Source of the DNA: Candidatus Nanopelagicales bacterium
GTDB lineage: Bacteria; Actinomycetota; Actinomycetes; S36-B12
Direction: 5' to 3'
Assembly: GCA_018609125.1 (NCBI GenBank)
Contig: JABAYF010000028.1
Coordinates: forward strand, 124,001-188,000
Length of the DNA stretch: 64,000 bases
Shown: positions 25,148 through 31,748 of the stretch, in pieces
Layout of the letters: the number at the start of each line of letters is the position of its first letter
Position numbering within the stretch: the first letter of the stretch is position 1
Notes under the pieces: generated by a model
Told to the model about the DNA's origin: nothing
Seen by the model: only the letters and a program-made list of their open reading frames with translations
Database searches by the model: none
Program-made: the position numbers and the translations under genes

Positions 25148-26044
25148 ATGGAAGCACTTATCGTTGCCATCGCTGCCGCCCTGGTCGTGATCGTGTTTGT
25201 TATGGCGTCGGTCAAGGTTGTTCCGCAGGCACACGCAACTCTGGTCGAGCGCTTTGGCAGGTACCAGCGCACGCTCAACGCCGGCATCGCCATCATCATC
25301 CCCTTCGTCGATCGGATAAAACCACGCATCGACCTGCGTGAACAGGTGATCTCTTTCCCACCGCAACCGGTGATCACCGAGGACAACCTCGTTGTGGGGA
25401 TCGACTCCGTCATTTATTTTCAAGTCACCGATCCAAAGGCCGCGAGCTACGAAATAGCCAATTACCTGATGGCCATTGAACAACTCACCGTCACCACGCT
25501 GCGCAATGTAATTGGCTCCATGGATCTGGAGAAAACACTGACCTCGCGCGATGGGATCAACGCAGCACTGCGCGGCGTTCTCGATGACGCCACCGGGCGC
25601 TGGGGGATCCGAGTGAATCGAGTGGAGTTGAAAGCAATTGATCCGCCCAACAGCGTCCAGCAGTCGATGGAGAAGCAGATGCGAGCGGAGCGAGATAAGC
25701 GCGCCACAATTCTCACTGCCGAGGGTGAAAAGCAGTCTGCCATCCTCACCGCAGAGGGCGACCGTTCGGCGGCGATCCTGCGTGCTGAAGGGTCGGCGCG
25801 CGCAGCGGTGCTCACCGCAGAGGGCGAGTCCGAAGCGATTCTGAAAGTTGTAGAGGCGATCAGAAATGCTGATCCAGACTCACGGGTGCTGGCCTACCAA
25901 TACCTGCAGACTCTACCTAAAATCGCCGCAGGAGACTCCAACAAGATTTGGATGCTGCCCACCGAGCTGACCGGACCGATGGCGCATCTGGCTGAGGCCT
26001 TGCGCCCAAGTAGACCGACCAATCCGGGCGTTAATGACTCCTAG
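25148..26044 (+). CDS. SPFH/band 7 (stomatin-like) membrane protein
   Basis: Stomatin-family scaffold protein of 298 residues with one N-terminal membrane helix (residues ~3-20) and a band 7 domain starting at VKVVPQAHATLVERFGRYQRTL. The stretch of about 60 residues after the band 7 domain contains a repeated AEGE-type coiled coil (EGEKQSAILTAEGDRSAAIL and onward), typical of QmcA/stomatin oligomerisation. AAGGAG lies nine bases before the ATG. It pairs with the NfeD gene upstream, and its last 11 bases overlap the start of the photolyase gene, so the three may form an operon. Confidence 0.94.
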   Translation: MEALIVAIAAALVVIVFVMASVKVVPQAHATLVERFGRYQRTLNAGIAIIIPFVDRIKPRIDLREQVISFPPQPVITEDNLVVGIDSVIYFQVTDPKAASYEIANYLMAIEQLTVTTLRNVIGSMDLEKTLTSRDGINAALRGVLDDATGRWGIRVNRVELKAIDPPNSVQQSMEKQMRAERDKRATILTAEGEKQSAILTAEGDRSAAILRAEGSARAAVLTAEGESEAILKVVEAIRNADPDSRVLAYQYLQTLPKIAAGDSNKIWMLPTELTGPMAHLAEALRPSRPTNPGVNDS

Positions 26045-27557
26045 TCCGACCCGGCACACCCGGTGGCTCTTCGCCGATCAGCTAGGCCCCCATTTCACGG
26101 CTGACTTGGACGAACATGATGTCGTCTTGATTATCGTGGCCACGGGAAGTTTTCGCCGGCGCCGCTATCACCGGGCGAAGGCCCATCTTGTACTAAGTGC
26201 GATGTACCACCGGGCTGGCGAACTAGGTGATCGCTGCGTGCTGATCGAAGCTGAAACGTTCACCGAGGGTGTGCAGCGCTACTGCCGAGACTTTGGTGTG
26301 ACACCAGCATCTATCAGTGTGAGCAACCCGACGTCCTACGGTGGTCGACGCCTTGTCCAGCGACTCGGTGTTGAGGTGTTGGATGCCCGAGGATTCGTTT
26401 CCAGCGAACAGGAGTTCGCTCATTGGGCTCAGACGCGGGGACGCAAGCGTCTACTGCAGGAGGACTTCTACCGAAACACGCGGGCACGGACCGGGGTTTT
26501 GATGGAGGACGGAAAACCCGTTCTCGGGCAGTGGAACTTCGATGCCGATAATCGCCAGCCCCCGCCTCGTAAACAGCAGACCCTTGGCTTAGCGCAGCCG
26601 TGGTGGCCCACCGAGGACTCCATCGATGACGAGGTTCGTCATCGTCTGGACTCGTGGGTATCCAGTGGAGAGGTGGAGTTCGTTGGCGAGGATGGGCCAA
26701 GGCTTTTCGCTGCCACCTACGCCGAAACCCAGCAGGTCCTAAATGACTTCATCGTTCATCGGCTGGCTACATTTGGCCCCTTCGAGGATGCCGCGATGAC
26801 TGATGACTGGGTGATGTCACACTCGCTACTGTCGGCACCGCTCAACCTGGGGCTGATCGATCCGCTGGAGTGCATCGCAGCCGTTGAGGACGCCTATGTG
26901 CGCGGCGATGCGCCACTGAACAGCGTCGAGGGTTTCATTCGGCAGATCATGGGGTGGCGCGACTATGTGTGGCACCTGTACTGGCATCTGGGTGAGGACT
27001 ACGTGTCATCGTCCAATGCACTGCATGCTCGAGAGCCGCTGCCCCAGTGGTGGCGCGATTTAGACTATGACTCGGTGGATGCGGCGTGCATTCGCACGAG
27101 TTTGCAGCAGGTGCATGACACGGGCTGGAGCCATCACATCATTCGCCTCATGGTGTTGGGGAACTGGGCATTGCAGCGCGGTTACGATCCGCAAGCCACC
27201 ACAGAGTGGTTCACCGAAGTTTTCATTGACGCCTACCCGTGGGTGATGGCCGCGAACGTGGTGGGAATGGCCTTGTATGCAGACGGTGGAGTCATGGCAA
27301 CCAAGCCTTATGCAGCCGGCGGCGCCTACATCAACCGCATGACCAACTTTTGCCGTCCGTGCGTCTATAAACCCACCCAGCGATTGGGTGACGATGCCTG
27401 CCCGGTCACGGCGGGTTACTGGTGGTTCATTGACCGAAACGCAGCCGCGTTCGAAGGTAACGTCCGCATGGCACAACCTTTGCGCGGCCGCAACCGACTA
27501 GTTGATCTACCGGCGGTCGTAGCGCAAGAGAATGACCGAGGCGCCGTCGCGCCCTAA
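26034..27557 (+). CDS. Fe-S cluster (6-4) photolyase / cryptochrome-like protein (FeS-BCP, PhrB type)
   Basis: Flavoprotein of 507 residues of the cryptochrome/photolyase-related family. Four cysteines that bind a [4Fe-4S] cluster in this group are at C352, C440, C443 and C456 (CRPC ... DDACPVTAGYWWF); the spacing matches the recalled PhrB set C350/C438/C441/C454 exactly with a shift of two. The N-terminal Rossmann domain begins with RWLFADQLGPHF, and the FAD-binding helical domain includes MGWRDYVWHLYW and GNWALQRGYDP. Such enzymes repair UV (6-4) photoproducts using light. ATG 26034 overlaps the SPFH gene by 11 bases; no ribosome-binding site is obvious, so translation may depend on coupling. 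Confidence 0.93.
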   Translation: MTPSPTRHTRWLFADQLGPHFTADLDEHDVVLIIVATGSFRRRRYHRAKAHLVLSAMYHRAGELGDRCVLIEAETFTEGVQRYCRDFGVTPASISVSNPTSYGGRRLVQRLGVEVLDARGFVSSEQEFAHWAQTRGRKRLLQEDFYRNTRARTGVLMEDGKPVLGQWNFDADNRQPPPRKQQTLGLAQPWWPTEDSIDDEVRHRLDSWVSSGEVEFVGEDGPRLFAATYAETQQVLNDFIVHRLATFGPFEDAAMTDDWVMSHSLLSAPLNLGLIDPLECIAAVEDAYVRGDAPLNSVEGFIRQIMGWRDYVWHLYWHLGEDYVSSSNALHAREPLPQWWRDLDYDSVDAACIRTSLQQVHDTGWSHHIIRLMVLGNWALQRGYDPQATTEWFTEVFIDAYPWVMAANVVGMALYADGGVMATKPYAAGGAYINRMTNFCRPCVYKPTQRLGDDACPVTAGYWWFIDRNAAAFEGNVRMAQPLRGRNRLVDLPAVVAQENDRGAVAP

Positions 27558-29221: not shown

Positions 29222-29842
29222 GTGTCCCCAGCTGCACCAACACCATGCGCCCGAGGCGAAATTTGGCTCGTTCGCCACGGACAAACAGAGTGGAGCCGTA
29301 CCGGTCGGCACACTGGTCGTACCGACATCGGTCTGACCGTGATCGGTGAGGATGAAGCCAAGGCGTTAGCGGAGCCGCTGGCATCGCATGCGTTTGGGCT
29401 GGCGCTGTCGTCGCCGCTGATCCGGGCCCGGCACACAGCGGAACTGGCCGGTATGACTGAGGTATCGTCCGACGTGCGATTGTTGGAGTGGGATTACGGT
29501 GGCTGGGAGGGTATGACCACCGACGAGATCCGGGCCCAACGTCATGATGAAAAGTGGACGATCTGGTCGTCACCGGTGCCCCCGGGGACGACTATGGGGG
29601 AGCAAGCAACCGAGGTCGCATCGCGCACCGGAGCGTTACTTTCTGAACTTCGGCCGGTTCTATCGTCTGGTAACGATGTCATTTTATTCGCACACGGGCA
29701 CGTTCTGCGTATTTTGACCGCCACCTGGATAGGGCTGCCGGCCGTTGATGCAAGGCTATGGGCGCTGGACCCGGCCAGGGTCAGCATCCTGGGTCATGAA
29801 CACGAGCAGCAGGTTGTTCGTCAGTGGAATGGCCGCCCCTAG
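29222..29842 (+). CDS. Histidine phosphatase family protein (phosphoglycerate mutase-like)
   Basis: Protein of 206 residues of the branch 1 histidine phosphatase superfamily. The catalytic motif is LVRHGQTEWSRTGRHTGRTDIGLT near residues 15-38, the acid residue lies in LEWDYGGWEG, and the second histidine is in ILFAHGHVLRI. The long insertion and WDYGGWEGMTTDEI segment fit broad-specificity phosphatases such as GpgP/PhoE type rather than true mutases. The GTG start has AGGAG eight bases upstream. Seven bases separate it from the methyltransferase gene. Confidence 0.9.
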   Translation: MSPAAPTPCARGEIWLVRHGQTEWSRTGRHTGRTDIGLTVIGEDEAKALAEPLASHAFGLALSSPLIRARHTAELAGMTEVSSDVRLLEWDYGGWEGMTTDEIRAQRHDEKWTIWSSPVPPGTTMGEQATEVASRTGALLSELRPVLSSGNDVILFAHGHVLRILTATWIGLPAVDARLWALDPARVSILGHEHEQQVVRQWNGRP

Positions 29843-29898: not shown

Positions 29899-31113
29899 AT
29901 GACAGATGGGGCAACACGCCGTAACCGACGCTTTGCTTTTCTCGGGGTAATCGCAGCAGGCCTAGTTCTGAGTGCCTGCGCCGGCGCTAGCGATGGCCAG
30001 GTGCCCAAAGTTGCCGCCACCCCAGAACCGGTCGCGGGTGCCCTCACGCAGGCCACCCCCACGCCTCGCGGAGCGATGAGCGACGAAGGAATCGTCACCG
30101 TGGGTCTCACCGACCCCTACACCCCCACCTCGACCGGAGCGGCGACTGATGACTACAGATGCTTCCTGCTCGACCTTGGTCTAGAAGATGACCGCATGGT
30201 CACTGGAGTTCGCTTCGTTCCTGGCAATCCGGCGGTGGTGCACCACGCGATCGTGTATCGGGTGCAGCCTTCCCAGGTAGCCGGTGCGCTTACGCGCGAC
30301 GCTGAGGATGCCGAGCAGGGTTGGTCGTGTTTTGGGGGACCCGATCTGCCCGCCCCGACCGCCGACGATGACGCGCTATCAGCGATTCGCGGCGCGGCTT
30401 GGCTCGCGGCATGGGCACCCGGTGGCCGCGAAGCCATGTTCGGTGACGACGTAGGCGTTGCGGTGGCCGCGGGCAGTCATGCGGTGCTTCAGGTCCACTA
30501 CAACCTGCTCGGTGGTCCCGGCCCTGATCTCACCGAGGTGCAGTTACGCACCGAACCCGATGACGGTTCGCGTCAGGCCCTGCAGACCCTGTTGCTGCCA
30601 GCCCCGGTGGAACTTCCCTGCGCTCCTGAAGAGTCAGGTCCCATGTGTGACCGAGAAACATCGGTTGCCGACACCATCGACCGCTTTGGCGGTGAATCCC
30701 TTCGTACCCTGTGGGGTCTGCATTTGATCTGCGGCAACGATCTCACCAAGCCACCGGCCGGTGCCACGCAATCATGTGATCACAAGGCGCAATCGGACAT
30801 GAAGGTGTACTCCAGCGCCGGACACATGCATCTGCTTGGTCGTAGCATTCAAATTGAGATCAACCCCGAGACCGACGATGCTCAGACGCTGTTAGATATT
30901 GAGTTATGGGATTTTGATAACCAGTCCGCGACCCTCATGGGTGAACCTCAACTCGTGCAAAAAGGTGACGTCTTGCGCGTGACTTGCACCCACGACGTGT
31001 CCCTACGTCAGGTACTGCCCGCCCTCGCCGATATCGAACCGCGATACGTGACCTGGGGTGAGGGTACGACCGATGAGATGTGCCTGGGAATCCTGTCGGT
31101 GACGCGCGCCTGA
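29899..31113 (+). CDS. Lipoprotein with a copper type II, ascorbate-dependent monooxygenase (PHM-like) core
   Basis: Predicted exported lipoprotein of 404 residues. Residues 1-27 form a signal peptide ending in the lipobox LSAC (C27), with R10-R11 in NRRFAFLG giving a Tat-like look. The body has the layout of peptidylglycine alpha-hydroxylating monooxygenase: H115-H116 (VVHHAIVY) and H200 (VLQVHYN) match the CuH ligands, H309-x-H311 (GHMHLLG) and M394 (EGTTDEMC) the CuM ligands. Intervening YRCF, GWSC and AWAPGG elements also fit. All six ligands are retained, so the protein is probably active; substrate unknown. No PAL lyase domain is fused. It shares one base with the next gene start (TGATG). 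Confidence 0.85.
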   Translation: MTDGATRRNRRFAFLGVIAAGLVLSACAGASDGQVPKVAATPEPVAGALTQATPTPRGAMSDEGIVTVGLTDPYTPTSTGAATDDYRCFLLDLGLEDDRMVTGVRFVPGNPAVVHHAIVYRVQPSQVAGALTRDAEDAEQGWSCFGGPDLPAPTADDDALSAIRGAAWLAAWAPGGREAMFGDDVGVAVAAGSHAVLQVHYNLLGGPGPDLTEVQLRTEPDDGSRQALQTLLLPAPVELPCAPEESGPMCDRETSVADTIDRFGGESLRTLWGLHLICGNDLTKPPAGATQSCDHKAQSDMKVYSSAGHMHLLGRSIQIEINPETDDAQTLLDIELWDFDNQSATLMGEPQLVQKGDVLRVTCTHDVSLRQVLPALADIEPRYVTWGEGTTDEMCLGILSVTRA

Positions 31114-31748
31114 TGACCCCGCCGATGGGCCCGGGCGAGACATCGGATGAGTCCACAGTGGACACCGATCGGATACTTACCATTCCGAATCTGCTGAGCA
31201 TGCTCAGACTGCTGCTCATTCCGGTTTTCATCTGGTTGCTTTTCGGACCCGAGGCAGACCTTTGGGCTGTTGCCGTCCTGGCGGTTTCCGGGATCACCGA
31301 CTATCTCGATGGAATTGTTGCTCGCCGCACAGGGCAGGTGTCTCGACTCGGACAAGTTTTGGATCCGCTGGTAGATCGCATCACCATCGCGGCAACCCTG
31401 GTCGCGCTGGCTCTACGCGATGTTATTCCCTGGTGGTTCGTGGCAGCCCTCGCCGCACGTGAACTGTTGCTGTTGGGGCTGCTGCCGATGCTGCGCCGCC
31501 GGGGTTTGGTAGCGCTGCCGGTTCACTACCTTGGCAAGGCCGCCACCTTCGCGTTGTTTTGGGGACTGCCCTTTGTGCTGGCTGGAACAGGAACCGCAAC
31601 CTGGCAAAACGTGGTTGATGTTGTGGGCTGGGCTTTCCTTTTATGGGGACTGGCGCTTTACTGGTACGCGGCTGCTCTCTATGTGGATCAGGCCCTTCGT
31701 GTGCGTCGCCACCTGAGCGCCTTGCCCATGTCATCACCGGTTCAGTAG
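31113..31748 (+). CDS. pgsA: CDP-alcohol phosphatidyltransferase (PgsA-like)
   Basis: Integral membrane enzyme (211 residues from ATG 31113) of phospholipid synthesis. The diagnostic motif D-G-x2-A-R-x8-G-x3-D-x3-D is complete in DYLDGIVARRTGQVSRLGQVLDPLVD. About five hydrophobic helices surround it. The N-terminal ~25 residues are polar (PPMGPGETSDES). Candidates are phosphatidylglycerophosphate synthase or cardiolipin/CDP-alcohol enzymes; PgsA is most likely given the conserved neighbourhood with gcvH-garA (pgsA2 in M. tuberculosis, from memory). The start is coupled to the stop of the copper-monooxygenase-like gene by a one-base overlap. Confidence 0.85.
   Translation: MTPPMGPGETSDESTVDTDRILTIPNLLSMLRLLLIPVFIWLLFGPEADLWAVAVLAVSGITDYLDGIVARRTGQVSRLGQVLDPLVDRITIAATLVALALRDVIPWWFVAALAARELLLLGLLPMLRRRGLVALPVHYLGKAATFALFWGLPFVLAGTGTATWQNVVDVVGWAFLLWGLALYWYAAALYVDQALRVRRHLSALPMSSPVQ

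Follow-up and report, generated by a model that had tools for sequence, protein, structure and literature searches.

A conserved bacterial member of the DBH/PHM copper monooxygenase superfamily, predicted to be membrane-anchored, in Candidatus Nanopelagicales

The window, a 64,000-nucleotide stretch of Candidatus Nanopelagicales DNA, encodes a real, conserved bacterial member of the DBH/PHM kind of copper enzyme. Computational analysis of its fold, copper ligands, anchoring signal, conservation and the domain architectures of its relatives makes it likely, in our judgment, that the protein is a functional, exported, membrane-anchored DBH/PHM (copper type II) monooxygenase that would receive electrons from an external donor and act on a substrate other than peptidylglycine. 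DBH and PHM are copper enzymes by which animals produce noradrenaline and amidated peptides. To our knowledge, they have been described almost exclusively in animals and other eukaryotes, and always with ascorbate as the reductant. The initial annotation had described a surface lipoprotein with a PHM-type copper core; that observation was confirmed and its interpretation was supported in part, whereas the PHM-type label and the choice of PHM-like substrates and ascorbate for assay needed correction. The features of the gene are as follows.

29899..31113, + strand: whole gene, 404 aa plus stop, an intact frame from ATG 29899 to TGA 31113
29899..29979, + strand: predicted lipoprotein signal peptide with lipobox L24-S-A-C27, read from the sequence
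29980..30081, + strand: linker rich in Pro, Ala, Thr and Ser, residues 28-61, poorly conserved in the 18-row alignment A1
30082..30606, + strand: N-terminal copper (CuH) domain, residues 62-236, from the Pfam PF01082 match at residues 108-202 and the strands of the model
30241..30246, + strand: predicted CuH ligands H115 and H116, invariant in 18/18 rows of A1 and in the covering rows of the 54-sequence set, aligned with the HH of PHM and DBH
30490..30498, + strand: Q198 and predicted CuH ligand H200 (QVH motif), invariant, aligned with the QVHY of PHM
30610..30789, + strand: Actinobacteria-specific insert, residues 238-297, defined by alignment lengths, with two helices in the model and conserved C241, C250, C278 and C293
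30790..31110, + strand: C-terminal copper (CuM) domain, residues 298-404, with the Pfam PF03712 match at residues 291-396
30823..30831, + strand: predicted CuM ligands H309 and H311 (HMH), invariant, aligned with the HTH of PHM and DBH
31078..31083, + strand: predicted CuM ligand M394 with C395 (EMC motif, as in PHM and DBH), M394 present in every covering row

An alternative GTG start at 29824 lengthens the frame and puts 25 residues ahead of the signal peptide; the ATG at 29899 appears to fit the signal peptide and the LSAC lipobox better. This lipobox, at residues 24-27, was called by eye from the sequence of the 404-aa protein and agrees with the lipoprotein assignment made initially. In the protein's own clade of 22 members, the lipobox cysteine was at the same place in 18/22, and the other 4/22 (L027, L029, L031 and L035) had a hydrophobic N-terminal segment instead. 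Anchoring to the outer face of the membrane is predicted to be general across this clade.

Both Pfam domains named for a search in the initial annotation were matched, Cu2_monooxygen (PF01082) and then Cu2_monoox_C (PF03712), which is the order expected for the superfamily. Cu2_monoox_C was matched at 1.2e-6 and 28.5 bits, exceeding the Pfam cut-off of 23, and Cu2_monooxygen at 1.6e-6 and 28.8 bits, 1.2 bits short of the cut-off of 30. Among the 18 family members, 13/18 matched Cu2_monooxygen and 17/18 matched Cu2_monoox_C at E <= 0.01. Such proteins are already covered by Pfam, so the family is not new. A search of NCBIfam with the window protein found no matching model, and phmmer with the single protein found no match among PDB sequences. 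The family profile matched only DBH (4zel, 1.5e-13) and PHM (1.6e-6) in the PDB.

AlphaFold2 gave an unusable model from the single sequence (pLDDT 33); an alignment of 21 sequences remedied this, with a pLDDT of 88.2 and a pTM of 0.85 for residues 62-404. When the model was compared to the PDB with Foldseek, each of the best 31 matches was a PHM or DBH chain, at probability 1.00 and E-values of 4.6e-14 to 4.1e-11, with modest whole-chain TM scores of 0.48-0.61 and approximately 16% identity. The top match by E-value was DBH 4zel (4.6e-14). Vicilin-like matches came next after these 31 chains and were rejected for low TM, and PNGase F (1pnf) was likewise rejected as a relative, with a TM of only 0.31-0.33. 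The two-domain double-jelly-roll copper core of the DBH/PHM superfamily, the fold that had been anticipated, is therefore well supported by the model. The term "PHM-type" was right about the two-copper core and too narrow as a label; both the profile scores and the leading Foldseek match suggest that DBH is at least as near to the window protein as PHM.

All six PHM copper ligands had been placed at exactly the right positions in the initial annotation, within motifs that start at residues 115 (HHAIVY), 197 (LQVHYN), 308 (GHMHLLG) and 390 (TTDEMC). These ligands, together with Q198, were present in every homologue spanning them, both in the 18-row alignment and in the 54-sequence set, and none was lost in any close relative that covers the positions. 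The conservation spans Actinomycetota, Bacteroidota and Pseudomonadota, with overall identity down to 22-29%. Selection for a functioning two-copper site would be expected to leave just such unbroken conservation of the ligands at low identity. Fold and ligands together argue strongly for the two copper sites.

The actinobacterial proteins differ from the others in the spacer between the copper domains, which is approximately 57-62 residues long compared to 18-21 in Bacteroidota and proteobacterial members. Nothing in the solved DBH and PHM enzymes corresponds to the resulting 6.2 kDa insert; its four cysteines were invariant in actinobacterial members, and none of the Bacteroidota and proteobacterial members examined had it. 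With C88/C144 and C363/C395, the conserved extracytoplasmic cysteines number eight, which would fit four disulfides. C363 and C395 were jointly missing in Bacteroidota members, and because both were lost together, C363 probably pairs with C395. The corresponding disulfide of DBH is Cys466-Cys488 (PMC3197665).

A scan of GTDB species genomes recovered 19 relatives, from Nanopelagicales, other Actinomycetota, a Thermoleophilia MAG, one proteobacterial MAG and two Chitinophagaceae MAGs. Intrasporangium calvum, Tetrasphaera australiensis and Phycicoccus jejuensis, all Intrasporangiaceae isolates, were among them. The gene was present in 16/59 genomes of the wider kin and 16/396 across the phylum, with 1 copy in its own genome, and no relative was found in the viral contigs of IMG/VR. 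The two Chitinophagaceae MAGs each carry a tandem pair of cytochrome c-copper monooxygenase genes (L018:5955-9164 and L019:5953-9164), with Met or Leu in place of the usual EMC cysteine; the one tandem copy scanned (L018:7581-9161) has a Por_Secre_tail, a C-terminal secretion sorting domain of Pfam. In another genome (G416), two adjoining homologues on one contig (L050/L054) are secreted, long-branched and free of heme and lipobox, and form a second heme-less lineage (family f60). No functional studies of bacterial members or of the heme and YceI fusions were found in the open-access literature, in line with the initial remark that bacterial members have hardly been studied; coming from a search of mainly open-access papers, this result is weak evidence.

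Domain fusions in the relatives bear on the source of electrons. An N-terminal heme domain with CxxCH was found in L010, L011, L016, L018, L019, L040-L044, L046, L047, L049 and L052; in L010, L011, L016, L018, L019, L046 and L049 it was accompanied by a later MPPW-type Met. The window protein has no CxxCH heme motif. Four deep actinobacterial members from other classes (L041, L042, L047 and L052) join YceI, a c-type cytochrome and two copper monooxygenase domains in one chain, with YceI (7.8e-13 to 8.4e-22) N-terminal to the cytochrome c. Such a chain could offer a path for electrons from quinol to copper. In a maximum-likelihood tree of the copper domains (45 rows), heme-less proteins were nested within heme-fused lineages, and the heme-less state was a single change in 78% of bootstrap trees. 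The root of this tree, between Actinomycetota and other phyla, is a midpoint root and not an inferred one; given that root, the heme-less form probably arose by a single loss of the heme domain.

Upstream of the gene are genes for a photolyase-related protein, a TauE/SafE permease, a SpoU methylase and a histidine phosphatase; downstream are a CDP-alcohol phosphatidyltransferase, with a 1-bp overlap at 31113, then GcvH and an FHA protein. The photolyase-related protein (DPRP, PF04244, 1.1e-31), at window positions 26034-27557, occupies the same place in related genomes. The gene's stop overlaps the phosphatidyltransferase ATG in the sequence TGATG at 31111-31115, which suggests translational coupling of the two genes in this genus; in other genera of the family, the two are separated by a further ORF for a membrane protein (L001:9203-9952 and L003:9196-9981). 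The gene order was kept within the same family and not in Intrasporangiaceae, and because it is kept only among close relatives, the neighbourhood says little on function. It was rejected as a clue to the substrate, the neighbours being housekeeping genes that differ between families. The protein's own genome (G000, 97% complete) had no match to the copper chaperones PCuAC and SCO1, to YceI or to a b561-type cytochrome (PF01292). Cytochrome_CBB3 had a single match in this genome, one protein with two such domains that is probably the QcrC subunit.

These data leave room for readings other than the one we favour. The enzyme could be a hydroxylase of lipids or isoprenoids, with YceI, a polyisoprenoid-binding domain, presenting the substrate in the deep members that carry it. 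The position of YceI ahead of the cytochrome c and copper domains, the membrane anchoring and the overlap with the phosphatidyltransferase gene would all fit. However, YceI may instead bind quinol as the electron input, and the phosphatidyltransferase neighbour was not kept outside the family. As a partner in trans YceI was not supported either; it is lacking from the protein's own genome and was present in 44/59 relatives, compared to 16/59 for the copper monooxygenase gene, with no obvious pairing. We therefore regard a lipid or isoprenoid substrate as rather unlikely. Of similarly low probability is a protein that has the PHM fold without monooxygenase activity and serves to bind, store or oxidize, for example in periplasmic Cu handling or in peroxide or nitrite chemistry. 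Pathway partner genes were not found, and the residues by which the known enzymes contact their substrates are missing, as such a role would allow. However, the ligands of both coppers, among them the catalytic CuM Met, were kept without exception, as was the Gln of QVH, and the fusion of relatives to electron-transfer heme domains argues for redox catalysis over storage.

The residues of the substrate pocket bear on a narrower question, whether the protein is a true peptidylglycine alpha-hydroxylating monooxygenase. It would then act on glycine-extended peptides or N-acylglycines, and the hemiaminal would decay spontaneously without PAL. The shared fold, the same six ligands and the QVHY motif in common with PHM are compatible with this. 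However, PHM Arg240, Asn316 and Tyr318, which we take to be the binders of the substrate's glycine carboxylate, aligned with Ala307, Leu396 and Ile398 of the window protein in profile alignments. The position equivalent to Arg240, just before the Val/Gly that precedes HxH, was Ala, Ser, Gly, Val or Met in 18/18 family members. As initially stated, the protein has no PAL lyase domain (Pfam); none adjoins it either, and a search of its own genome for a PAL-like protein gave no NHL-repeat match. The profile score was also higher for DBH. Since the pocket residues are replaced and no PAL or NHL protein accompanies the enzyme, hydroxylation of peptidylglycine or acylglycine appears unlikely; the PHM-like substrates proposed for assay at first are thus not favoured, and we consider a true PHM very improbable. 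Four residues past the CuM Met, the position held by Tyr318 in PHM and by Tyr491, an active-site Tyr, in human DBH (PMC3197665) is Ile398 in the window protein. A catecholamine such as dopamine likewise appears an unlikely substrate. The marginal Cu2_monooxygen score might have pointed to a spurious or degenerate match or to a gene in decay; this reading is refuted by the model and the conservation, and also by the profile, the intact frame and the intact relatives, 44-64% identical, in many genomes, and its probability is negligible.

For copper loading, catalysis, the electron donor and the substrate of the monooxygenase, we infer the following course. Once exported, the protein would receive a lipid at Cys27 that anchors it to the membrane's outer face. 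The N domain would bind one copper through H115/H116/H200, and the C domain would bind the other through H309/H311/M394. An external one-electron donor would reduce both coppers, as in PHM and DBH; with O2 bound at CuM, the enzyme would use an electron from CuH to hydroxylate a small organic substrate at a C-H bond. Copper reduction, O2 binding and hydroxylation are proposed here because they are established for the PHM and DBH superfamily. The ancestor of the bacterial branch would have been supplied with electrons by the cytochrome c fused to it, and the window form, its heme domain lost, would have to use a separate donor. Because the nearest bacterial relatives outside the clade are fused to a c-type cytochrome, dependence on ascorbate is doubtful and a protein electron donor is plausible. 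More tentatively, the bacterial DBH/PHM branch may as a whole be fed by the respiratory chain, from quinol via YceI and the fused cytochrome c, rather than by ascorbate, and may hydroxylate substrates of the envelope or the environment, with the window lineage as a descendant that has lost the heme domain and relies on a separate donor; we put this forward as a possibility that is less probable than its opposite.

If active, this compact bacterial enzyme, with its two-copper core, altered pocket residues and heme-fused relatives, would show how the family worked before the ascorbate-based chemistry of neuroendocrine systems. It would also make the electron source testable, and the protein might supply a small, robust enzyme for C-H hydroxylation. 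Should it act on a lipid of the envelope or on a dissolved organic compound, a new oxidative step would be added to abundant freshwater actinobacteria. What deserves attention is the altered pocket, together with the fusions to heme and YceI domains.

Compared to known systems, human DBH (4zel) shares with the window protein the two-domain copper core, the six ligands and the HxH...EMC motifs. DBH has an N-terminal DOMON domain, whereas nothing but a signal peptide and a linker comes before the copper domains here; the window protein differs further in its four-Cys insert, its predicted lipid anchor, Ile398 for Tyr491 and an identity of approximately 16% in the structural alignment. Rat PHM (1phm, 1opm and 1sdw) is alike in fold, in the CuH His triad, in the His/His/Met of CuM and in the QVHY motif, and differs in its three peptide-site residues, in the PAL partner that the window protein lacks and in the weaker profile score. 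PNGase F has a distantly similar double-jelly-roll fold without copper sites, and is in the same Pfam clan as PHM (PMC8812541). The bacterial fusions of cytochrome c, or of YceI and cytochrome c, to Cu2_monooxygenase domains are homologous in the copper core and have the same six ligands, and the actinobacterial ones share the Cys-rich insert; unlike them, the window protein has neither the heme nor the YceI domain and is predicted to be lipid-anchored.
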